DNA from: Oscillospiraceae bacterium
Lineage (GTDB): Bacteria; Bacillota; Clostridia; Oscillospirales; Ruminococcaceae
Direction of reading: 5' to 3'
Length of the DNA: 48,064 bases
Assembly: GCA_018110985.1 (NCBI GenBank)
Contig: JAGAWT010000030.1
Location: forward strand, 1 to 48,064
Shown here: positions 7,250 to 19,718 of the stretch, piece by piece
Layout of the letters: each line of letters begins with the position of its first letter
How positions within the stretch are numbered: position 1 is the stretch's first letter
Translations under genes and position numbers: made by a program
Notes under the pieces: generated by a model
The model's input: the letters and a program-made list of their open reading frames with translations, nothing else
Databases searched by the model: none
What the model was told of the DNA's origin: nothing

Positions 7250-10200
7250 TTACAGGGTCGATGATCTTTTTGCGGTCACCTTTGAAGTGCCCTTTACCTT
7301 CACTGTTACCTTGTAGGACTCACTTGCCTTGGAAAGTCCCTCTTTGGTGGTGTACTTCACCATGAATCTGTAGGTCTTTCCCTTTTGGGCGCCCTTATAG
7401 GTGTAGGTGTTCTTTTTGGTCACGGCGAGCTTTTTCGCCTTTTTTCCCTCCACAAGGTAAACGGTATAGCTCCTGGCCTTATCCACCTTGTCCCAGGTGA
7501 GGATGATATCACAGTTTTCAGTCACCCTTCCGCTTATGGTCTTTCCATCCACGGGTGACTTTCGGCTGCCCTTGTTCGCCGCTGCGGGTGCGGGCGCAGA
7601 GCCTGAGTAGGGTACATTTGAAGGGACGGAAGGGCTGTAGGAGGCTGCGGGTGCGGGCGTGATATTCCCGGGCAGCACCGCTGTTATCTCTTTCCAGTCG
7701 GAAAGGGCTTCCCCGTATTCACTTACAAGACGAACATGGTAGGTGCCGGGCTTTGTGAAGGTTACAAGACCTGCAGTATCAATGTATATGCCGTCGCTTT
7801 CCATTGCTTCCCACTTTGTATACCTGTCGTCATAATCCTCGGGATAAACAACTATAAGACTGTTATTCAGGGCTTCGATCTCATCTCCGGCAGGTTCAAA
7901 CAGTGTAGGATCTGCACCGACAGTTCCGGTGAAATTCCCCATTATTCCGATGGGAAACGGGTCTATGGTCACATATATGTCTGCCCAGTTGGAGTACGCC
8001 GTCGAGCCGTTGAAATTTGTGGTTTTTAACCTGAACCGGAAATTTCCGGGAAATGAAAAGGAAACCTGGTTTCCGTTTATTTTTACACTACCGTAATCAC
8101 TTTCTACTTCCCACTCCAGGCTGCTTTGTGCTATACTTGTCTTTGAGCCGTTTTTATAGGTGACTTCCCAACTGAAAAGACCGGAGAGATCATAAATGTA
8201 TGTGCTAAAGATGCTTGAATACAGTTCAGTGTTGGGATTATTTGCTTTCAGAGTAATTACATAATTGTACGGGTCGTTTTTTATCTTTTCTTCCCTGATC
8301 TTCTTGTCTTCCTCGCTTTGCGTCATTGCCTCTGCTGCTGTGGTGGGTATCTTTTTCCTTTCGCAGGTCTGAAGTCCGCCGAGTAAACGGTCATAAAAAT
8401 ACATACGGAGACATTTATCCACACCCTGATATTCGTGTCCGTCAATTGGGCTGTAATACTCCCATTCACGGTGGATTATGTATATTTTTGCGCCGCCTTC
8501 GGCGGATGATGCAGGGGCAGATGGATCTACACTCAGCAGCTGCGGGATCCAGAAAGCATAATCATAATAGTATTGATTTTTATAATTCTTGCTATCCTGA
8601 CGCCTACAAGAGTAAAGATTCTGTTCATAAGCTTCGCGTGTAGCTTCTTCTTGTGAGATCATGTGATCCCCGTTACCGAACCATCCGTAATAGGGATAAT
8701 AGGGATTTTTTACCCTGTTAGCGGGATTGTAGTCATATGGGAATTTAGCAACGGGGATGCTGCTGTTATGGCCTTTCAGTCGTGAGATATCAAACCCCAT
8801 GGACTCAAGGTAATTTCCTAAGGTCATAGTAGAGTACTTGGTTTTTAAATAGTCATTGATCTTTTTGGCAGGGAAACCGATTTTTTCCTGTGAGCTTATA
8901 AGTTCATCCTGAGCTTTTGTATGATTGAGGAAATTGGCTGACCAGTCTCCTACTCGTCTGTCATCTGTCCAAGGGCGCTCCGCAATCAGTATCTCATCGG
9001 AAAACTGTATCTGTTCGGTGCCTTTGTTTATCATCAGGAGCCTGTCGTTCTGAAGCTTGTACTGAAAGACAGAGTACCTGCTTATAATACTGTATGGATT
9101 ATTTGCATCAAGAAACATTGCTGTAAGGGTGTCAAGCTCGTTTTTTATAAGGCTGCTGTCTATGGTTTTGCACTGCAGATAATAACTGTAGATAGCTTCT
9201 TCACCGTACTGCTGTGCATAATCCTTTACCTGGTCATCTGTCATATTCGATACGGCAAGGGCTGCAGCCAGGCACTGTGTAATGGATGTATATGCCGAAA
9301 GGTATTCGTATATATACAGATCCACATACGGCTTCATTTCGTCGTAGACCTCTCCTGTAAACATACAGTCTGAAGCGGCAGTGTCATAAAGCACCTGAAA
9401 ATAATCCCGCCCCTTTTCATCTTTGTATGCCCCGGATGCACCGGAAAGCAGGCCAGCGAAGTTTTTAAACCTGTAGAGCACGTTGTCTGTTCTGTTCCAG
9501 TCGTCATACTTCCCGATAAGGACGGCTATTTCTATGGCTTTTACATCATCATTGTATTTCGGATTTGAAAGAATGGAATTTATCTGACCGGATATGCCTA
9601 TCCTGCTGATTCCGAATTCGTCCACGCCGCCGTTAATCTGTGTGTTTAAGGTGCGAAGTTCAGTTTTTACGGAATTCTGGAACATCGCATTGTTTATTTT
9701 TTTGAGTTCGCTGTCAAGTGCATCTATTCTTGAATTAAGCTCGTTGAACCGGGTGTTCATTTCCGTGCGGAATTCTGATACATCCTTGCTGAGGGTATTG
9801 ATTTTATCTATTGCATCGCTTATGGTAGGCCCCGTACTTATACCCAGCAGAGAGCCGATAGCTCTCAGAAACGGACTTGCGATTCTTCCATGGGGGACAA
9901 GGTCAATCACTGCTTCTACACCTGTTTCCCAGGCTGTGTTGCCGATATCAGCGGCGGGTACCTCCTCATAAATTACAAGTCCGCCTTTCATATCATAGGC
10001 AAGCTGACCCACATAGGGCGCAACGGTGTCGTCGTAAACGGGAACAGCCGCACCCTCTGCAAGTCCGTCTCCGGAGTATACGGGAACTGTGCCGCCGGGT
10101 ATTTCTGCAGGTGTGATTTCGCCGCCAGCGGGGACGTTTTCTGTATACCCGTTTTCATTCACCGGTACTTCATCCGCAAAAACTGCTGCAGGCAGTGCGG

Positions 10201-10264
10201 AAAATGCCATAGTGACGGAGAGAATACCGGATAATATGCGTTTTGAGATCTTTTTATCCTTCAT
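7250..10264 (-). CDS. Large secreted protein: helical/coiled-coil N-terminus, Ig-like and Fn3-like C-terminus
   Basis: The 1004-residue product has a Sec signal peptide (KK-rich start, hydrophobic 11-28, likely cleavage after AVFA at 30). A Pro/Gly-rich stretch (31-105) follows, then an amphipathic segment with IASPFLRAIGSLLGI (128-142) and a heptad-rich coiled coil (about 148-212, with RFNELNSRIDALDSELKKI). Next is a long mostly helical region (about 215-480) and a Tyr/Trp-rich section (about 505-575). Two Ig/PKD-like beta domains follow (about 690-772 and 774-863), then a Pro/Ala linker (864-900) and a Lys-rich Fn3-like domain (905-1004). No LPxTG anchor is seen. The order of hydrophobic helices, coiled coil and beta domains recalls pore-forming or host-surface proteins, but I recognise no named family. 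Start: GAGGA lies eight bases before the ATG. It is 32 bases downstream of the C39-like gene and shares its operon. Confidence 0.85.
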   Translation of the reverse strand: MKDKKISKRILSGILSVTMAFSALPAAVFADEVPVNENGYTENVPAGGEITPAEIPGGTVPVYSGDGLAEGAAVPVYDDTVAPYVGQLAYDMKGGLVIYEEVPAADIGNTAWETGVEAVIDLVPHGRIASPFLRAIGSLLGISTGPTISDAIDKINTLSKDVSEFRTEMNTRFNELNSRIDALDSELKKINNAMFQNSVKTELRTLNTQINGGVDEFGISRIGISGQINSILSNPKYNDDVKAIEIAVLIGKYDDWNRTDNVLYRFKNFAGLLSGASGAYKDEKGRDYFQVLYDTAASDCMFTGEVYDEMKPYVDLYIYEYLSAYTSITQCLAAALAVSNMTDDQVKDYAQQYGEEAIYSYYLQCKTIDSSLIKNELDTLTAMFLDANNPYSIISRYSVFQYKLQNDRLLMINKGTEQIQFSDEILIAERPWTDDRRVGDWSANFLNHTKAQDELISSQEKIGFPAKKINDYLKTKYSTMTLGNYLESMGFDISRLKGHNSSIPVAKFPYDYNPANRVKNPYYPYYGWFGNGDHMISQEEATREAYEQNLYSCRRQDSKNYKNQYYYDYAFWIPQLLSVDPSAPASSAEGGAKIYIIHREWEYYSPIDGHEYQGVDKCLRMYFYDRLLGGLQTCERKKIPTTAAEAMTQSEEDKKIREEKIKNDPYNYVITLKANNPNTELYSSIFSTYIYDLSGLFSWEVTYKNGSKTSIAQSSLEWEVESDYGSVKINGNQVSFSFPGNFRFRLKTTNFNGSTAYSNWADIYVTIDPFPIGIMGNFTGTVGADPTLFEPAGDEIEALNNSLIVVYPEDYDDRYTKWEAMESDGIYIDTAGLVTFTKPGTYHVRLVSEYGEALSDWKEITAVLPGNITPAPAASYSPSVPSNVPYSGSAPAPAAANKGSRKSPVDGKTISGRVTENCDIILTWDKVDKARSYTVYLVEGKKAKKLAVTKKNTYTYKGAQKGKTYRFMVKYTTKEGLSKASESYKVTVKVKGTSKVTAKRSSTL

Positions 10265-10296: not shown

Positions 10297-11544
10297 TTAC
10301 TGTATATCCTCAAAGGTGGGGATATCGTTCTGGAATATGTCGCTGCTGCCTGTGCTGCCTATGGTGCCCGGTTCTTCCCAGATGTCTATGTCTCCCTCTC
10401 CGCCGCCGAAGGTGAACACATCGAAATCATCTGAGGTCTGAGCAGCAGTGACAGCGGCTTCTGTGGGAGCGGCAGTCTCTGCTGTCGTTTCTGCGGCCGT
10501 GGTCTCTTCCGTTTCCTCGGGGTCATATTCCTCAAATTCCCCGTTCTCGGTGTACGGGATCAGGACTATCGCCTGGGAGTGCATCTGTGCAAACCGGGTC
10601 TCAAATTTGTTTATATCGTAGGAGATTATTCCCTTCATGGGGTCATTGAGGGTGACTGTCCCCGCATCCACATCGTAGCCTGCAAGCACAAAGCAGTGTT
10701 CGTTCAGGTACCAGTCCAGCCTTTCGCCTGTGGCGTTGTCATACCATGTTTCGTAGTATTCCGGGGCTATCATGCCGTCGGTCGCCCAGCAGAGCACGGG
10801 GACACCGCTCGCTACCCAGTCGTAAAGGGTATCGGGGGAGCATCCGGAGATATTTCTCACATCAAAGCCGCCGCCGTGGGAGGAAATGTAGCTGTCCGCT
10901 GCGGTCTCTATGGCTCCCGAAAAGCAGCCGTATCCCGTGGAAAAAGGGTCACCTATGAAATAATCATAGAAGCTGTCCTTGTAGAGCACCCCGTCCACTT
11001 CCCTTGCATTTCCCCAGGAGGTGGGAAGGTAGTTGCGGGCAAGGTCGGTCTTGTCCGCAGAAAAGCCGTAGTGCCTGAGAAGAATGGTGAGGGCTGTTAT
11101 CTCGCATCCCGTGGGCAGCTCCGGCAGCTGTCTGATATTCTCCATATCTATATAGGAGCTGTATGTGCCGAAATAGCTGCGGTCCCTGTAATTTATCACA
11201 TCACGGGAAGTGACCACTTCCTCGGTGTAGACAGGCTCATCATCAAAGCCTGTCTGTGAGGGCTCCTCATCCCCGCCCGTCTGGGTGCGTTCATCGTGGT
11301 AGTCATAAAAGAGGTAGGTCATAAAGGAGGTGGAGGTGGTGATCTCTGTCATTGTGGCGGTGGTAGTCTCCGAACTGTCGGATCCGTCCGTCACCTCTGT
11401 CTCGGAAGAGGTCTGCGTATCCGTCTCCACTGCGATATTTTCGCCGCCTGTGTTTCTTGAAACGATAGCAAGGGCTATGCTGCCGATAAATATGACAGCA
11501 AAGAAAATGAGAAGTGTGAGCTTGGAGGGGGGAATTTTTTTCAT
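10297..11544 (-). CDS. Membrane-anchored C39-like (papain-fold) peptidase
   Basis: From the chosen ATG (415 residues) there is one N-terminal membrane anchor (about 8-28), a Ser/Thr/Glu-rich stalk (30-80) and a Peptidase_C39_2-like domain outside the cell. Candidate catalytic residues are C147 in LPTGCEITAL, H283 in NEHCFVLAGYD and N300/D301 in LNDP. An acidic Thr/Ala-rich tail (about 335-415) follows. The frame extends four codons upstream to a TTG at 11556, but MKKIPPSK is a typical anchor start, so the ATG is preferred; neither start has a strong ribosome-binding site. C39-like domains of this type occur in secreted bacterial proteins of mostly unknown substrate. Position between the pseudo-ATPase and the large secreted protein suggests that it processes or modifies an envelope or secreted partner; this is inference. 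Confidence 0.82.
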   Translation of the reverse strand: MKKIPPSKLTLLIFFAVIFIGSIALAIVSRNTGGENIAVETDTQTSSETEVTDGSDSSETTTATMTEITTSTSFMTYLFYDYHDERTQTGGDEEPSQTGFDDEPVYTEEVVTSRDVINYRDRSYFGTYSSYIDMENIRQLPELPTGCEITALTILLRHYGFSADKTDLARNYLPTSWGNAREVDGVLYKDSFYDYFIGDPFSTGYGCFSGAIETAADSYISSHGGGFDVRNISGCSPDTLYDWVASGVPVLCWATDGMIAPEYYETWYDNATGERLDWYLNEHCFVLAGYDVDAGTVTLNDPMKGIISYDINKFETRFAQMHSQAIVLIPYTENGEFEEYDPEETEETTAAETTAETAAPTEAAVTAAQTSDDFDVFTFGGGEGDIDIWEEPGTIGSTGSSDIFQNDIPTFEDIQ

Positions 11545-11586
11545 GATCCGTACCAATCAAAAAGTGTGAAGAAATACTATCAAAGG

Positions 11587-14500
11587 CTATTCCCTGCCCC
11601 TTGCCAGGTAGGCAAAGGCAACGAATATAATCGTGAAAACAAGGTTCAGGAGCAGTACCTTCGTTACGGTGAGCTGTGCCATGGACTTCAGCAGCACCAT
11701 TGCAAAGACAAGGAGTATGCCGAGGAATATCTGTACAGCCTGCATAGCCGTTCCGATGGAAATGATGCTTTTGAGCTTCTTTGACCCTATGAGCATCTGA
11801 GCAAAGGAATGGAAGCTGCCGCTGCAGCAGAGGGTGGCATCCCTGTTCTGTACATAGTCCACGGACTTTGAGAAGTCCTCATGGTACCTGAAGGGTATGA
11901 GCCTGAAAAGAGAGGGCGCCGTGCCGAACATTTTGGAGAGCCTTTCCACGGTGAGCATGGAATCCACGCTTCTGAGCATTATGTTGATGCGGCTCTTTTC
12001 AAGCCTGTGAAGTGTGTTTGCTATGGGGTAGGCGGGGACAAGGTCTATGACGAAAAGCCCCGAAAGAGAACCTGAGATGGAAAGGTAAACGGCAATACGG
12101 CCGTTTTTGGTGTACTCCGCTTCCTTTTCTGCGGAGGGGAGCCCCTCTATGCTGTGGTTTATCATCAGCTCCCTGTTCCCGAGCAGCACCCTTTTGTTGT
12201 CTATCCAGCCGCAGAGCCCCATGGAATCCTCGTAGAGGTAGCTTTCCACACGATCCAGCATTTCCAGCTTTCCGCCGATTATCTCGTAGAACATACTGTC
12301 CAGTATGCTGCCTGACTGGTGGGTAAGGCTCGCAGCCTTGATTATGGCCTCGTCTATGGAGGTGTCGGGGAATGTCTTTATGTTTATGAGCCTTATGCTC
12401 CCTGAGGGGAAAAGCTGTGAGGCATCCACCATGACGGAGTTCGTTTCGGAGAATTCCGCAATGCTGTCAAATCCCACTATGGCACCGCCGGACTTTGCGT
12501 ATTCCTTGGAAGCCATATCGAGAGGGAGGTTCACCACCAGCATTATGGAGAAGCAGGAGCAGATGCCGCAGACTGCGGAGAATACGGAGCAGCCTATGCA
12601 GAAGGCTCCCAGTGCGCCGTGCTCAAAGGTGCCCATGACTGCGGCTATTATGCCGAGTATGAGCCCCGCTCCCGCTATGACGGGAGACAGCTTTTTGCAG
12701 AAAATGTCCGTGCTGTCGCTGGCGTATGATGTTTTGAGGAAGTTCGTGATAAGCTCTGTCCGCTGCATACCCGCAAGAACGGGTATGTCAGTAAGTGCGC
12801 CTCTGGTGAAGTTCTGCACCCGTCCGTCGTCGCTTTCCGTGAAAAGGGCGTAGTGGGGGTGGTCTCCGGAGATGTTTGCAAAGCTGCGCTGAGTTCGTGA
12901 TATGATGAGCAACTTTCCCACGGTGTTGAATATGAGTGAGCCGATGGCAACGGCTGTGTAGACATAGACATCATTGCTCTTTATCATATTCTGGGAGGAG
13001 AGGGTGATCATGGAGGTCACAAGACTGCCGCCCAGTGCGAGAGTGCAGAGAGAATCGCAGTCCGCCCTCATCTGTGTCAGCTTTGAAAGACCGTTTGCAA
13101 GGGTCTGGTAAGCGCAGATGCCCGCTATCATACCTATTATGGTATTGATAAAGAGGAAGGTCTCCGTGTCGCTCTTTTTGTTTATGATCCTGAAAGAGTC
13201 CAGCACGGGGAGAGAATAGTCGTTTGCCACGGCTATATACCCGCAGACCACAAAGCAGGCTATAAGGATGAGGAGACGGACGATGAGCCTTGTCTTCTGC
13301 CCCTCTATGTGGGCGGAGACCGACGGCACATCCATTATGCCCTCAAAATCCTCTATCTCGCTTTCCTTTTCCTCAAGCACCTGTTCCTCTTCGGGGGTGT
13401 TTTCCTCCTCCTCCCCCACAAGGCTGAAGGTGAAGCTGTTCACCTTGTCACGGCGCCTGTTTTTCAGATCCCTTATCCTGTCCTGCTCCTCCTTTTTTGG
13501 GTCGGTGTGCAGGGATGAGGTGTCATCGAGTATCTTCCCGTCCAGGTTCAGGTCTATGTCCGAGATCTGCTTGCGGTTGATGGCGTTGGTGGGTATGCGC
13601 TTTACCTTGTCCGCCTTAAGCTCCCCTCCGGTCTCGTCGCCCTCCTTGGCAAGGAACTTGTTGAATATCCCCGAAAATGCCATGGAGGGGCTGTCGGACT
13701 TTCTTGCGGTGCTGTTTCCCGTGTCGTACTGGGCAAGGATCTTGTCCACATCATCTATGGACGAGAACTTGTCAAGAGCCTCCACAGCCTTTTCGGAGTC
13801 CCTTTCCTGCCTGTGGTGCTCCTGCTTTCTGGACTTGTCTCCCGCATATTTCTTGTCGTATTCCGAAAGCTCCATCTTTTCCGAAAGGGAGTGACCTGCG
13901 GTCTTTACATTCTCCTCGCCGCTGATATCATATGGGATGATGTGTTCCTCGCCTATGAGCTCATCCTTTTCCTCATCGGATATAAGGGGCTTGTTGCCGT
14001 ATTTCTTTTCAAACTCGTCGTCATCGTCGTAAACGGAGTGGAGACCGCCGAAGGAATCATCAAGCAGGTCGAGGCCGAATTTCCTTTTGGGCTGCTCCTG
14101 CTTTTTTGCCTTTTTGTTCTTTTTCCTTTCCTTCCTTGCAGTCCTGAAAGCCTCTTTTTCGAGAGCCTTTTTCGCCTGCTCCTCCTCTTCCCGCTGCTGC
14201 CGTTCCGCCTCTATCTCTATAGAGGTCTTCAGCTCCTCGGGAACATATTTCCTGTCGTAGTCGCCGCTGAGTATCTCATAGTCTATCTGCTTTGACTTCT
14301 TTATCCTGTCCTCCTCGGAAAGCTCCTCATCGGGGACGGCGGTTATGTCCGCAGCCTTTCGGCGCAGCTCCTCCGAGTTGGTATTATCCGAGGGTGCGGA
14401 GGCTTTGAATGCGGAAAAGCTGATGTCCTGATCCCCGAAAAACTCCGAGAGCCCGGATTCGTCGTAGCTTTCCTTTGCCGAGTAGCTGCTTATTATATCA

Positions 14501-14589
14501 TCAACGGATGAATCCCCGGCGGGATGCTGCTGCTTTTCCCCGTGGAATTCTCCCAGTATATCATCCAAAGAATACCTGTTGTCTGCCAA
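11587..14589 (-). CDS. Degenerate P1B-type ATPase homologue with long charged cytoplasmic N-terminus
   Basis: Residues 1-430 of this 1000-residue protein are highly charged and probably disordered, with Lys- and Glu-rich runs. Helices lie near 433-456, 477-500, 512-532, 540-563, 635-655, 658-687, 945-968 and 972-995, a P1B-like layout. The second half follows heavy-metal ATPases: a SIMLVVNLPLDMA segment where CPC should be, VMVDASQLFPSG (719-730) where FDKTGTLTEG should be, AASLTHQSGSI (752-762) at the HP-motif position, DNKRVLLGNRELM (797-809) matching the N-domain GKxVLVGNxxLM, and RSVD (873-876) where TGDN should be. The aligned Asp (722) remains, but the KTGT, TGES, TGDN and GDGxND motifs are gone, so ATP-driven transport is unlikely. 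Start is TTG, seven bases after AAAGGAAG. It is 22 bases after rlmB. Role unknown: perhaps a scaffold, sensor or membrane regulator. Confidence 0.85.
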   Translation of the reverse strand: MADNRYSLDDILGEFHGEKQQHPAGDSSVDDIISSYSAKESYDESGLSEFFGDQDISFSAFKASAPSDNTNSEELRRKAADITAVPDEELSEEDRIKKSKQIDYEILSGDYDRKYVPEELKTSIEIEAERQQREEEEQAKKALEKEAFRTARKERKKNKKAKKQEQPKRKFGLDLLDDSFGGLHSVYDDDDEFEKKYGNKPLISDEEKDELIGEEHIIPYDISGEENVKTAGHSLSEKMELSEYDKKYAGDKSRKQEHHRQERDSEKAVEALDKFSSIDDVDKILAQYDTGNSTARKSDSPSMAFSGIFNKFLAKEGDETGGELKADKVKRIPTNAINRKQISDIDLNLDGKILDDTSSLHTDPKKEEQDRIRDLKNRRRDKVNSFTFSLVGEEEENTPEEEQVLEEKESEIEDFEGIMDVPSVSAHIEGQKTRLIVRLLILIACFVVCGYIAVANDYSLPVLDSFRIINKKSDTETFLFINTIIGMIAGICAYQTLANGLSKLTQMRADCDSLCTLALGGSLVTSMITLSSQNMIKSNDVYVYTAVAIGSLIFNTVGKLLIISRTQRSFANISGDHPHYALFTESDDGRVQNFTRGALTDIPVLAGMQRTELITNFLKTSYASDSTDIFCKKLSPVIAGAGLILGIIAAVMGTFEHGALGAFCIGCSVFSAVCGICSCFSIMLVVNLPLDMASKEYAKSGGAIVGFDSIAEFSETNSVMVDASQLFPSGSIRLINIKTFPDTSIDEAIIKAASLTHQSGSILDSMFYEIIGGKLEMLDRVESYLYEDSMGLCGWIDNKRVLLGNRELMINHSIEGLPSAEKEAEYTKNGRIAVYLSISGSLSGLFVIDLVPAYPIANTLHRLEKSRINIMLRSVDSMLTVERLSKMFGTAPSLFRLIPFRYHEDFSKSVDYVQNRDATLCCSGSFHSFAQMLIGSKKLKSIISIGTAMQAVQIFLGILLVFAMVLLKSMAQLTVTKVLLLNLVFTIIFVAFAYLARGRE

Positions 14590-14611: not shown

Positions 14612-15415
14612 TCAATTCTTCCGTGCTTTTATCATTCTCTGCCGCAGGGCCTCATATATGAAGATGCCCGCCGCAACAGAGGCGTTGAGTGAGTTTATCT
14701 TTCCCAGCATGGGCAGACTTACCAGTACATCGCACTTTTCACGCACGAGCCTGCTCATTCCGAAGCCCTCCGAGCCTATTACGACCGCACAGGCACCGGT
14801 AAGGTCGGTGTCGGTGTAGGAGGGGGCATCAGCCTGGGTGCCGTAGATCCATATGCCCCTTTCTTTGAGCATATCTATGGTCTGCGGTATGTTGGAGACC
14901 CTTGCCACAGGCAGAAAGCTGGCAGCGCCTGCCGATGTCCTGTGGACGGTCATGTTCAGGGAGGCGCTCCTTCTTTTGGGGATGATGATGCCATCGGCAC
15001 CTGCTGCCTCCGCTGTTCTTATGATGGCTCCCAGATTATGGGGGTCTTCTATCTCGTCACAGATGATGATAAAGGGGGATGTGCCCTTTTCTGCGGATAC
15101 TGCGAGGATGTCCTCCACGCTCACATATTCCGCACAGGCTGCCGCCGCAATGACACCCTGGTGGGCATCACTGCCGCACATACGGCTGAGCTTGTCGCTC
15201 TTGACATCCTTTACCACCACACCTGCTTCCTTTGCAAGGCGTGATATCTGTGAAAGGGAGCCGCCCAGGGCTGTGTCCATGTACACGGTATCAACGCTTT
15301 TGCCGGAGCGCAGGAGCTCTTTTACGGGGTTTCGCCCTATAACGAAGCTGTCGTCGCTTTCGGGAGATCTGTAATCTTTTCCGCCTTTTCTCGTGCGGTC
15401 GTCCTTATAGGGCAT
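14612..15415 (-). CDS. rlmB: 23S rRNA (guanosine-2'-O)-methyltransferase RlmB (SpoU family)
   Basis: This SpoU/TrmH-family enzyme methylates the 2'-hydroxyl of a conserved guanosine in 23S rRNA (G2251 in E. coli numbering) using S-adenosylmethionine. The N-terminal substrate-binding domain (about 24-95, FVIGRNPVKELLRSG) and the knotted catalytic domain are both present. All three SpoU motifs are intact: EIEDPHNLGAIIRTAEAAG (about 122-140), VIGSEGFGMSRL and LPMLGKINSLNASVAAGI. Length 267 is normal. It heads the minus-strand operon that continues into the pseudo-ATPase, with GAGG in front of its ATG and a near-consensus promoter about 40 bases upstream. A second TrmH-family paralogue lies at 20424-21206. 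The exact target is assigned by family; the other paralogue is the less certain of the two. Confidence 0.9.
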   Translation of the reverse strand: MPYKDDRTRKGGKDYRSPESDDSFVIGRNPVKELLRSGKSVDTVYMDTALGGSLSQISRLAKEAGVVVKDVKSDKLSRMCGSDAHQGVIAAAACAEYVSVEDILAVSAEKGTSPFIIICDEIEDPHNLGAIIRTAEAAGADGIIIPKRRSASLNMTVHRTSAGAASFLPVARVSNIPQTIDMLKERGIWIYGTQADAPSYTDTDLTGACAVVIGSEGFGMSRLVREKCDVLVSLPMLGKINSLNASVAAGIFIYEALRQRMIKARKN

Positions 15416-15454: not shown

Positions 15455-15483
15455 ATTATACTACATTATTATTCTTTTTTCAA
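15455..15483 (-). promoter_or_regulatory. Strong promoter of the rlmB-led operon
   Basis: The minus strand reads TTGAAA (15483-15478), 17 bases, TATAAT (15460-15455): a perfect -10 and a 5/6 -35. It should drive rlmB, the pseudo-ATPase, the C39-like protein, the secreted protein and DUF4317. No other clear promoter appears within that 9-kb block. Confidence 0.85.
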
Positions 15484-15564: not shown

Positions 15565-15603
15565 AAAACGCAGGCGCAGGATACCGAAAAGGCATCCTGC
15601 GCC
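15565..15603 (-). terminator. Rho-independent terminator of nadA
   Basis: GGCGCAGGAT (15573-15582) and ATCCTGCGCC (15594-15603) form a 10-bp stem with an 11-base loop. The minus-strand tail CTGCGTTTTCC contains a T-run of four (A-run 15565-15568). It lies 24 bases after the nadA stop codon. Confidence 0.75.
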
Positions 15604-18886: not shown

Positions 18887-18915
18887 GATACGCCCGTGAC
18901 GAAATGATGCGCCAT

Positions 18916-18964
18916 TGGCTGTGACCTCCGCAGTGCTGTCAGGGGTGCTGCTGAGGCCATTTTT
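18916..18964 (+). terminator. Terminator after the EAL-domain gene
   Basis: TGG (18916-18918), CCTC (18925-18928) and GCAG (18930-18933) pair with CTGC (18948-18951), GAGG (18953-18956) and CCA (18957-18959), with small interruptions, followed by TTTTT (18960-18964). The stem is imperfect but is followed directly by the T-run, and the infC promoter begins 30 bases later. Confidence 0.6.
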
Positions 18965-18993
18965 GTGCAAAGTGCCGAAAAATCCAAAATCCC

Positions 18994-19022
18994 TTGACAA
19001 GGGCTGCCAAAAGGTATATAAT
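18994..19022 (+). promoter_or_regulatory. Perfect consensus promoter of infC-rpmI-rplT
   Basis: TTGACA (18994-18999), 17 bases, TATAAT (19017-19022): both boxes match the housekeeping consensus exactly. Transcription should start near 19029, giving a leader of about 160 nt. Confidence 0.92.
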
Positions 19023-19028
19023 GTCATG

Positions 19029-19187
19029 GTACAACAAAGCAGAGCATATGTTCTCACCGTATCATATTGGTGCATACGGTCAAATATCCGGGGAAGCAGA
19101 GCGGCGAAAGTATCGCTGTATTTGAGGCCTCCGGCAGTTTGGGACAGAGCTTTGTTTGCTCTGTTTTTTATTTTTGGATCGACGGGG
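19029..19187 (+). promoter_or_regulatory. L20-type autoregulatory leader of infC-rpmI-rplT
   Basis: The leader holds a hairpin ACCGTAT/ATACGGT (19056-19062 with 19074-19080), a larger stem CAAATA/TATTTG (19081-19086 with 19119-19124) enclosing AGCG/CGCT, and an attenuator terminator (19144-19175). AACAAAGC at 19033-19040 is complementary to GCTTTGTT in the attenuator (19149-19156), and CAGAGC at 19040-19045 duplicates its left arm, so the transcript 5' end can act as an anti-terminator. Bacillota are known to control this operon by L20 binding the leader; the layout fits that mechanism. Confidence 0.75.
19144..19175 (+). terminator. Attenuator terminator in the infC leader
   Basis: ACAGAGC (19144-19150), a 7-base loop and GCTCTGT (19158-19164) are followed by TTTTTATTTTT. 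It is an intrinsic terminator placed before the infC coding region, so it must be read through or disrupted for the operon to be expressed. Confidence 0.88.
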
Positions 19188-19196
19188 GTGTTCGCC

Positions 19197-19718
19197 ATAG
19201 CAGCGAAGGACAGCAAAGATCTGCAGATCAACGAAGAGATACGGGACAAGGAGATAAGAGTCATCGGCAGCGACGGCTCGCAGCTCGGTCTTATGAGCGC
19301 AAGGGATGCGCAGAAGATCGCAACGGAGCAGAATCTCGATCTCGTGAAGATCGCACCTCAGGCAACTCCGCCTGTGTGCAAGATCATGGACTACGGAAAA
19401 TATGTCTTTGAGCAGGCAAAGCGTGAAAAAGAGGCAAAGAAGAACCAGAAGACCGTGGAGATAAAGGAGATAAGGATGTTCTCCGGCATCGATACCCACG
19501 ACTTTGATACCAAGGTCAACCAGGCTGTGAAGTTCCTCAAGGGCGGGGACAAGGTCAAGGTCTCTGTGCGCTTCCGCAGGCGTGCCATTGCTCATCCGCA
19601 GATAGGCGAAGAACTTCTCGAAAAATTCAGGGATGCATGTGCAGAATACGGAGCGGTAGACAAGCCTGCCAAAATGGAAGGCAGAGCTATAGTCATGTTT
19701 ATGGCTCCGAAAAAGTAA
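19197..19718 (+). CDS. infC: Translation initiation factor IF-3
   Basis: IF-3 binds the 30S subunit, blocks premature 50S joining and proofreads start-codon choice. The protein reads LQINEEIRDKEIRVIGSDG at the N-terminal domain, then the Lys-rich linker (QAKREKEAKKNQK) and the C-terminal domain with RMFSGIDTHDFDTKVNQA and KVSVRFRRRAIAHP. The open frame continues far upstream through the promoter and leader, which is an artefact. Two starts are plausible: ATA at 19197 (chosen; 173 residues) or GTG at 19188. Rare AUU/AUA/AUC starts are typical of infC and allow IF-3 to limit its own synthesis. It heads infC-rpmI-rplT, under leader attenuation. Function is certain; the start is not. Confidence 0.93.
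   Translation: MAAKDSKDLQINEEIRDKEIRVIGSDGSQLGLMSARDAQKIATEQNLDLVKIAPQATPPVCKIMDYGKYVFEQAKREKEAKKNQKTVEIKEIRMFSGIDTHDFDTKVNQAVKFLKGGDKVKVSVRFRRRAIAHPQIGEELLEKFRDACAEYGAVDKPAKMEGRAIVMFMAPKK

Follow-up and report, generated by a model that had tools for sequence, protein, structure and literature searches.

The window analysed here, a 48,064-nucleotide stretch of contig JAGAWT010000030.1 from an Oscillospiraceae bacterium (order Oscillospirales), carries on its minus strand an open reading frame (ORF) of 1000 codons that runs without interruption from a TTG start. We refer to its product as a pseudo-P1B-ATPase. The initial annotation had described it as a heavy-metal P1B-type ATPase fold stripped of its catalytic motifs, with a shortened actuator (A) domain and a charged tail of about 430 residues. 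The intact frame was confirmed, and the tail is present, with 41% D/E/K/R over residues 1–430; we refine its description to an N-terminal arm. The features of the locus are collected in Table 1.

Table 1. Features of the pseudo-P1B-ATPase gene and its upstream region (positions in the window).
Feature	Position	Strand	Basis
Pseudo-P1B-ATPase gene, 1000 aa, TTG start	11587..14589	minus	ORF call; homology; order-wide relatives
N-terminal docking-like motif, residues 5–15, RYSLDDILGEF; second, looser copy at residues 27–36	14545..14577	minus	
Long variable charged tail, residues 16–436; membrane-adjacent residues 331–436 moderately conserved	13282..14544	minus	
First membrane block (MA, MB, M1, M2 by analogy), residues 437–565	12895..13281	minus	hydropathy, hhalign
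Shortened actuator-domain loop, residues 566–634, TDIP replacing TGE	12688..12894	minus	alignment
M3–M4, residues 635–690; CPC replaced; Pro689 in 59/59	12520..12687	minus	hydropathy, alignment
P domain part 1, residues 691–745; DASQLFPSG replacing DKTGT	12355..12519	minus	alignment
N domain, residues 746–850, most conserved part	12040..12354	minus	hydropathy, conservation, Foldseek to CopA P/N domains
P domain part 2, residues 851–949; TGDN and GDGxND degenerate	11743..12039	minus	hhalign, alignment
M5–M6, residues 950–1000	11590..11742	minus	hydropathy
rlmB-like SpoU 23S rRNA methyltransferase gene	14612..15415	minus	Pfam SpoU_methylase 9.5e-44
Promoter-like site (11 of 12) upstream of rlmB	15455..15483	minus	consensus scan only
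Strong 13-bp terminator-like hairpin beside the rlmB promoter-like site	15573–15603		consensus scan
Promoter-like match (9 of 12) inside the start of the pseudo-ATPase gene	14560–14589	minus	consensus scan

Averaged hydropathy resolved eight hydrophobic segments in residues 437–1000. Soluble loops follow the fourth and the sixth of these; a weak peak at residues 841–842, within the N domain, was discounted as a membrane segment. P1B ATPases likewise have eight membrane segments. To place the protein, we compared it with known families. A phmmer search against a set of PDB sequences matched LpCopA (3rfu) with an E value of 1.9e-14 over residues 647–961. Among NCBIfam models, CopA (8e-10) and the heavy-metal ATPase model ATPase-IB_hvy (5.4e-7) were matched, both far below their curated cut-offs (39.2 bits for CopA, where the cut-off is 1316), and a Pfam scan of the protein matched no family and no output domain. 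A profile built from 35 diverse cores of the family retrieved 13 PDB sequences, all of them heavy-metal P1B ATPases or their domains, at best with 1.2e-25. Taken singly, all 35 cores matched the CopA model (best E value 4.6e-19) and 32 matched TIGR01525; in Pfam they gave one weak match to DUF6750 and otherwise none. Aligned by hhalign with a canonical CopA-like pump, family columns 22–488 were covered with a probability of 98.2, and in the first membrane block an ADCDSL segment occupies the place of the canonical NMDSL segment. These comparisons bear out the alignment to heavy-metal ATPases proposed in the initial annotation, whose quoted segments were found, and they show that the ORF is homologous in sequence to the P1B copper ATPases, far beyond chance.

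Structure prediction pointed in the same direction. An AlphaFold model of the P/N region, built from five sequences, was weak (predicted local distance difference test (pLDDT) 52.3, predicted template modelling score 0.52). Searched with Foldseek against the PDB at E ≤ 0.001, it gave 60 matches, and the 50 listed were all P-type ATPases, the best of these being CopA (3rfu, 2.8e-9); TM-scores by query length were only 0.26–0.51 among the matches listed. By this low-pLDDT prediction, the P/N region has a P-type ATPase fold. A model of the whole core from five sequences (pLDDT 41.5) was too poor to use.

To follow the catalytic motifs, we aligned the query with 58 distinct relatives (59 rows), taken by blastp at E ≤ 1e-40 among 62 loci with identical copies dropped. 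In the cores of these rows, DKTGT and GDGxND were found in none, TGE in two, TGD[NS] in one and [CST]P[CH] in one. The DKTGT site is occupied by a DAxxLFPxG-like stretch, in which position 723 is never K and L726 and F727 are each kept in 55 rows; the Asp that preceded KTGT, at position 722, occurs in 48 rows and is thus not fixed. The TGE region is replaced around P603, kept in 54 of 59, and the GDGxND site by a G924–F926 pattern. In the M4 region P689 is invariant and CPC is absent: at the metal-site columns, 677 is C in 37 rows, 678 is never P, 679 is P in 17 and 680 is never C or H. The SEHP-type motif is lost as well. What survives is the Asp of TGDN (58 of 59) together with two glycines present in all 59 rows, the second one of the N-domain GxG and that of GN. 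The loop at the A-domain position is short, with 66–72 residues, as expected from the claim of a shortened A-domain, and the P/N loop has 259–267.

The same absence extended beyond these rows. DKTGT, TGE[PS] and GDGxND were absent from 29 distinct members (33 ORFs, some of which, a few only, are also in the 59); a few of these members have a bare TGD string somewhere, whereas the canonical ORFs listed beside them do carry all three motifs. In nine of the lowest-scoring members of the order (130–166 bits), DKTGT and GDGxND occurred in none and a TGE string in one. Canonical comparators scored at most 87.6 bits (ORFs of the same list) and 96.3 bits (pumps of the phylum draw described below). The possibility that the weak order-level matches are ordinary CopA was thus ruled out for 19 loci and the nine low scorers, which have at least 130 bits and neither DKTGT nor GDGxND. 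A frameshift or annotation artefact was also ruled out: DKTG, TGE[SP], TGD[NS] and GDGxND occur in none of the three minus frames of the region, where the lone TGD[NS] string lies in a plus frame, and the homologues likewise lack DKTGT and GDGxND (0 of 59). The losses that the initial annotation had listed (KTGT, TGES, TGDN, GDGxND and CPC) therefore stand for the intact motifs, with the Asp of TGDN and Asp722 as residues that largely remain. Across the aligned family, motif loss is fixed, and several of the replacement sequences are conserved.

These counts bear directly on whether the protein might still be an active P-type pump with divergent motifs. The retained membrane architecture and fold, together with Asp722 in 48 and Asp876 in 58 of 59 rows, would fit such a pump; however, the phosphorylated Asp differs in 11 of 59, KTGT and GDGxND are gone from all 59, and the A-loop TGE and the CPC-type sites from 58 each. 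To our knowledge, no P-type ATPase works without an Asp at the phosphorylation site, and we regard continued pumping as highly improbable. The metal or redox sensor suggested in the initial annotation is not supported, with CPC gone and a Cys at position 677 in only 37 of 59.

We then asked what kind of selection acts on the gene, using the ratio of nonsynonymous to synonymous substitution rates (dN/dS; Nei–Gojobori) in 12 close, partly overlapping pairs. In the core the ratio was 0.033–0.085, a rough value in nine of the 12 pairs, where dS exceeds 1; in the tail it was 0.064–0.19 in ten pairs, dS being saturated in the other two. Loss of the catalytic motifs, and one relative (G266) with an internal TGA, could suggest a pump decaying into a pseudogene. 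The core ratios, the new conserved motifs that replace the old ones and the presence of the gene in 185 of 197 genomes of the order argue against this, and among the matches listed in the family and order searches no internal stop was found except that in G266. The low ratios and the order-wide presence rule decay out, and we assign it a negligible probability. The view that the loss was selected, put forward in the initial annotation, is in line with these data, which indicate a family under purifying selection whose catalytic residues are lost across orthologues.

The distribution of constraint has also changed. Columns conserved at 90% or more number 22 of 105 in the N domain and, in the two successive parts of the P domain, 3 of 55 and 5 of 99, whereas in nine canonical pumps the corresponding counts are 10 of 106, 15 of 55 and 30 of 96; the domains are delimited only approximately, and the sets compared are unequal in size and depth. 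By this comparison the order of constraint is the reverse of that in real pumps, with conservation highest in the N domain instead of the P domain. Such a pattern could mean that the rewired N and P domains bind a nucleotide or small molecule and that the signal reaches the arm by way of the membrane part. This ligand sensor is favoured by the conservation of the N domain, by the invariant second Gly of GxG and Gly of GN and by Asp876 (58 of 59). Human TMEM94 offers a parallel, since it binds β,γ-methyleneadenosine 5′-triphosphate (AMPPCP) with no detectable ATPase activity, according to one report (PMC12134183). On the other hand, the SEHP-type motif is lost, only rlmB is a general neighbour and Pfam found no output domain, and we consider a ligand sensor unlikely.

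The family is confined to one order in our searches. With the single protein as query, 238 of 247 genomes of the host family matched at E ≤ 1e-10, a few with two matches. The profile matched 185 of 197 genomes of the order at E ≤ 1e-30, once in each. Named relatives include Oscillospiraceae and Ruminococcus metagenome-assembled genomes and Subdoligranulum variabile. A draw from the class gave 14 matching genomes of 293 at E ≤ 1e-30, all within the host order, and a draw from the phylum gave nine of 299 at E ≤ 1e-25, four within the order and five outside. The six loci of these five outside genomes have every canonical motif and are canonical pumps; no pseudo-ATPase was found outside the host order in either draw, and a scan of viral contigs found no relative. 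In a tree of 49 pseudo and eight canonical proteins, the two groups are split by a branch with 100/100 support, and many small groups follow genome families; the eight canonical rows are too few to place the point of origin within P1B. The distribution and the tree indicate an old, vertically inherited family, order-wide in these gut Clostridia, and the pseudo-pump looks to have arisen once.

The position of the gene is similarly stable. The rlmB-like gene lies 22 bases upstream on the same strand. A promoter consensus scan found eight promoter-like sites against 3.3 in shuffles, and between the site before rlmB and the pseudo-ATPase start the 9-of-12 site is the only other minus-strand match. 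Given this spacing and the promoter-like site and hairpin before rlmB, the two genes likely form an operon. We inspected 51 loci, namely an initial 42 (selected by length, hence not a random sample) and the nine low scorers. In 47 of them, spread over many families, the gene directly upstream and on the same strand is a complete rlmB: in 41 of the first 42, the exception being L049, and in six of the nine low scorers, where a contig edge cuts two (L197 and L198) and one (L192) has none. In L138 and L139, rlmB overlaps the stop-to-stop ORF of the pseudo-ATPase. No neighbour other than rlmB was general across the clustered loci.

Two loci deserve separate mention. In L049 (2460–6038), a 915-residue ORF directly before the pseudo-ATPase separates it from a full-length rlmB match, and the last ~100 residues of this ORF match the end of rlmB again with 60% identity; the arrangement suggests that an element entered rlmB at its 3′ end and that the gene end was duplicated. 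In L191 (OY725837.1, 1–6976), the gene pair lies on a 116-kb circular record of S. variabile labelled plasmid 3: either these core genes sit on a plasmid or chromid, or the label of the record is wrong.

So constant a neighbour raises the possibility that the protein acts with RlmB, for example by keeping the methyltransferase, or the maturation of ribosomes, close to the membrane. RlmB is widespread outside the host order, yet no such membrane protein was found there in the class and phylum draws; one locus (L192) lacks the upstream rlmB, and the proximity may only reflect a stable promoter. We judge this partnership very improbable. That the protein serves a canonical P1B pump, as its regulatory subunit or as a decoy, is suggested by the shared fold and by canonical P-type pumps close by in L043, L054 and L141. 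These are, however, only three of 42 loci, and a search of the query's own genome at E ≤ 0.001 found only the query itself, although LpCopA is matched in the PDB set at 1.9e-14, which leaves a pump partner very improbable.

The arm differs from the core in its variability. The stretch before the first membrane segment ranges from 125 to 627 residues (by stop-to-stop reading, which makes some lengths too long). Near the likely start, most tails have a motif like YSxDDILxEY or YNVDDILAEI. The pattern [VIL][DE][DE]I[LIVM]x[ED] was present in 50 of 59 N-terminal tails (mean 0.42, maximum 3 in shuffles); of the nine tails without it, L002 and L062 start at the locus edge and several others have near variants (SLDNILNEY, SLDELLNEY). 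Another regular expression matched 24 of the 43 family ORFs, compared with 1 of the 484 remaining ORFs of the same loci, and the DNA pattern for DDI-x-x-E-[YF] had a single match in the window, the N-terminal motif of the pseudo-ATPase. The motif looks like an N-capped amphipathic helix, as in docking peptides.

Related strings occur elsewhere in the same genome, where the tails of an MltG-like protein (L066, YceG match) and a sortase-like protein (L064, PF04203 match) carry DDILNEY or DEILNEY. Two DNA motif patterns together gave six matches in this genome, three of them in N-terminal tails (pseudo-ATPase, MltG-like and sortase-like) and three in other proteins. One further genome of the same genus has the motif in an MltG-like ORF.

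Taking lost catalysis, retained architecture, the newly conserved N domain and the docking-like arm together, the most economical reading is a P1B-derived membrane protein that no longer pumps, bears a docking helix at its N terminus and serves as a scaffold or receptor; we give this reading somewhat better than even chances. A CopA-like P1B ATPase ancestor would have given rise to a vertically inherited membrane protein that retains the eight membrane segments, the P domain and the N domain as a rigid scaffold, while the phospho-Asp signature, the TGE needed for dephosphorylation, the GDGxND hinge and the CPC metal site have given way to other sequences. The long disordered N-terminal arm would display S-x-D-D-I-L-x-E-[YFI] as a short amphipathic helix, with which a cytoplasmic partner is probably docked at the membrane. 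The face of the N domain where conservation is new probably binds a ligand or this partner. The product would be a non-catalytic receptor or scaffold made together with RlmB. Homology, motif loss, purifying selection, the order-wide distribution, the place after rlmB and the recurring N-terminal motif are demonstrated; from the motifs we infer that ATP turnover is absent, and likewise the helix, docking, scaffolding and co-transcription. Of the function first proposed, a pseudo-pump serving as membrane scaffold or metal/redox sensor, the P1B-derived pseudo-pump is upheld and a membrane scaffold is the likelier role, whereas the sensor part is not.

Several observations weigh against the scaffold or receptor reading. 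Single rows of the 59 retain a TGE string in the A loop (L043), TGD[NS] in the core or [CST]P[CH]; the structure models are weak, at a pLDDT of 41.5 for the whole core and 52.3 for the P/N region; and no partner was found. One relative (G266) has the internal TGA, 12 of 197 genomes of the order have no match at E ≤ 1e-30, and L192 (genome G247), with no rlmB match in the 2.5 kb upstream, is the one clear exception to synteny. The arm motif was found in only nine of 25 further members (shuffled mean 0.11; three of the 25 are cut off upstream), and two divergent members of family f9 (L147 and L148, 553–554 residues) have almost no N-terminal arm. The core can thus exist without the arm, and docking by the arm cannot be universal. 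Finally, either of two motif patterns occurred in only three of 30 MltG loci (own genome included) and in none of 30 sortase loci, the latter being the best-scoring one per genome and possibly of another class than the sortase-like protein of the own genome. An envelope-docking motif shared with MltG and sortase was thus not upheld beyond the genus, and a shared envelope partner is to be taken as no more than a lead.

With more reserve, and as a possibility that we hold to be rather less than even, the protein may be an order-defining core protein: a P1B pump that turned once into a non-catalytic membrane receptor, whose docking helix and disordered arm recruit cytoplasmic machinery to the envelope, possibly with the MltG-like and sortase-like bearers of the helix, and whose N domain recognises a new ligand.

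Three other genes of the window were noted. Directly downstream of the pseudo-ATPase gene on the same strand lies an ORF for a C39-like peptidase (10297–11556), whose N terminus has a hydrophobic segment and whose tail is rich in Thr and Glu; it is not a shared neighbour in the other clustered loci. A secreted-looking protein of 1004 residues (7250–10264) has a weak C-terminal fibronectin III-like match below the cut-off. In the gene for translation initiation factor IF-3 (18915–19718), 104 residues precede the IF3_N domain, which means either that the frame was read from a TTG too far upstream or that the N-terminal extension is real.

Compared with CopA-type P1B ATPases (LpCopA 3rfu, TIGR01525, PRK10671), the pseudo-ATPase shares collinear membrane and P/N homology over most of the core, a match of the modelled P/N fold and eight hydrophobic membrane segments. 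It differs in lacking DKTGT, GDGxND, CPC and SEHP and, in 58 of 59 rows, the A-loop TGE; in an A-domain loop about half the canonical length as judged from hhalign; in a long charged N-terminal arm where pumps have a metal-binding domain; and in the shift of constraint from the P to the N domain. Membrane pseudoenzymes kept as scaffolds are known from the rhomboid-derived iRhoms, which likewise keep a catalytic fold for binding and have a long cytoplasmic N-terminal arm, although their fold and host are unrelated. A literature search for pseudo, inactive or degenerate P-type ATPases found no paper, with a control search that worked, and at the level of titles nothing was found on this protein. 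By analogy, the nearest precedent that we met is human TMEM94 (ERMA), described in one study as having P-type architecture without TGES, as here, and no detectable ATPase activity; unlike the present protein, it is eukaryotic, has ten helices and is nearest to SPCA by structure (PMC12134183). Its status is disputed, and a second report describes it as the endoplasmic reticulum Mg2+ ATPase (PMC13322241).

Non-catalytic P-type ATPases thus seem hardly described. The protein encoded in the window would be a prokaryotic one, nearly universal in one order of gut bacteria, in a stable genomic slot and with no Pfam family of its own. The family offers a clean system in which to study how a transport ATPase comes to serve another purpose, as well as a candidate for a core function of these bacteria that has not yet been recognised.

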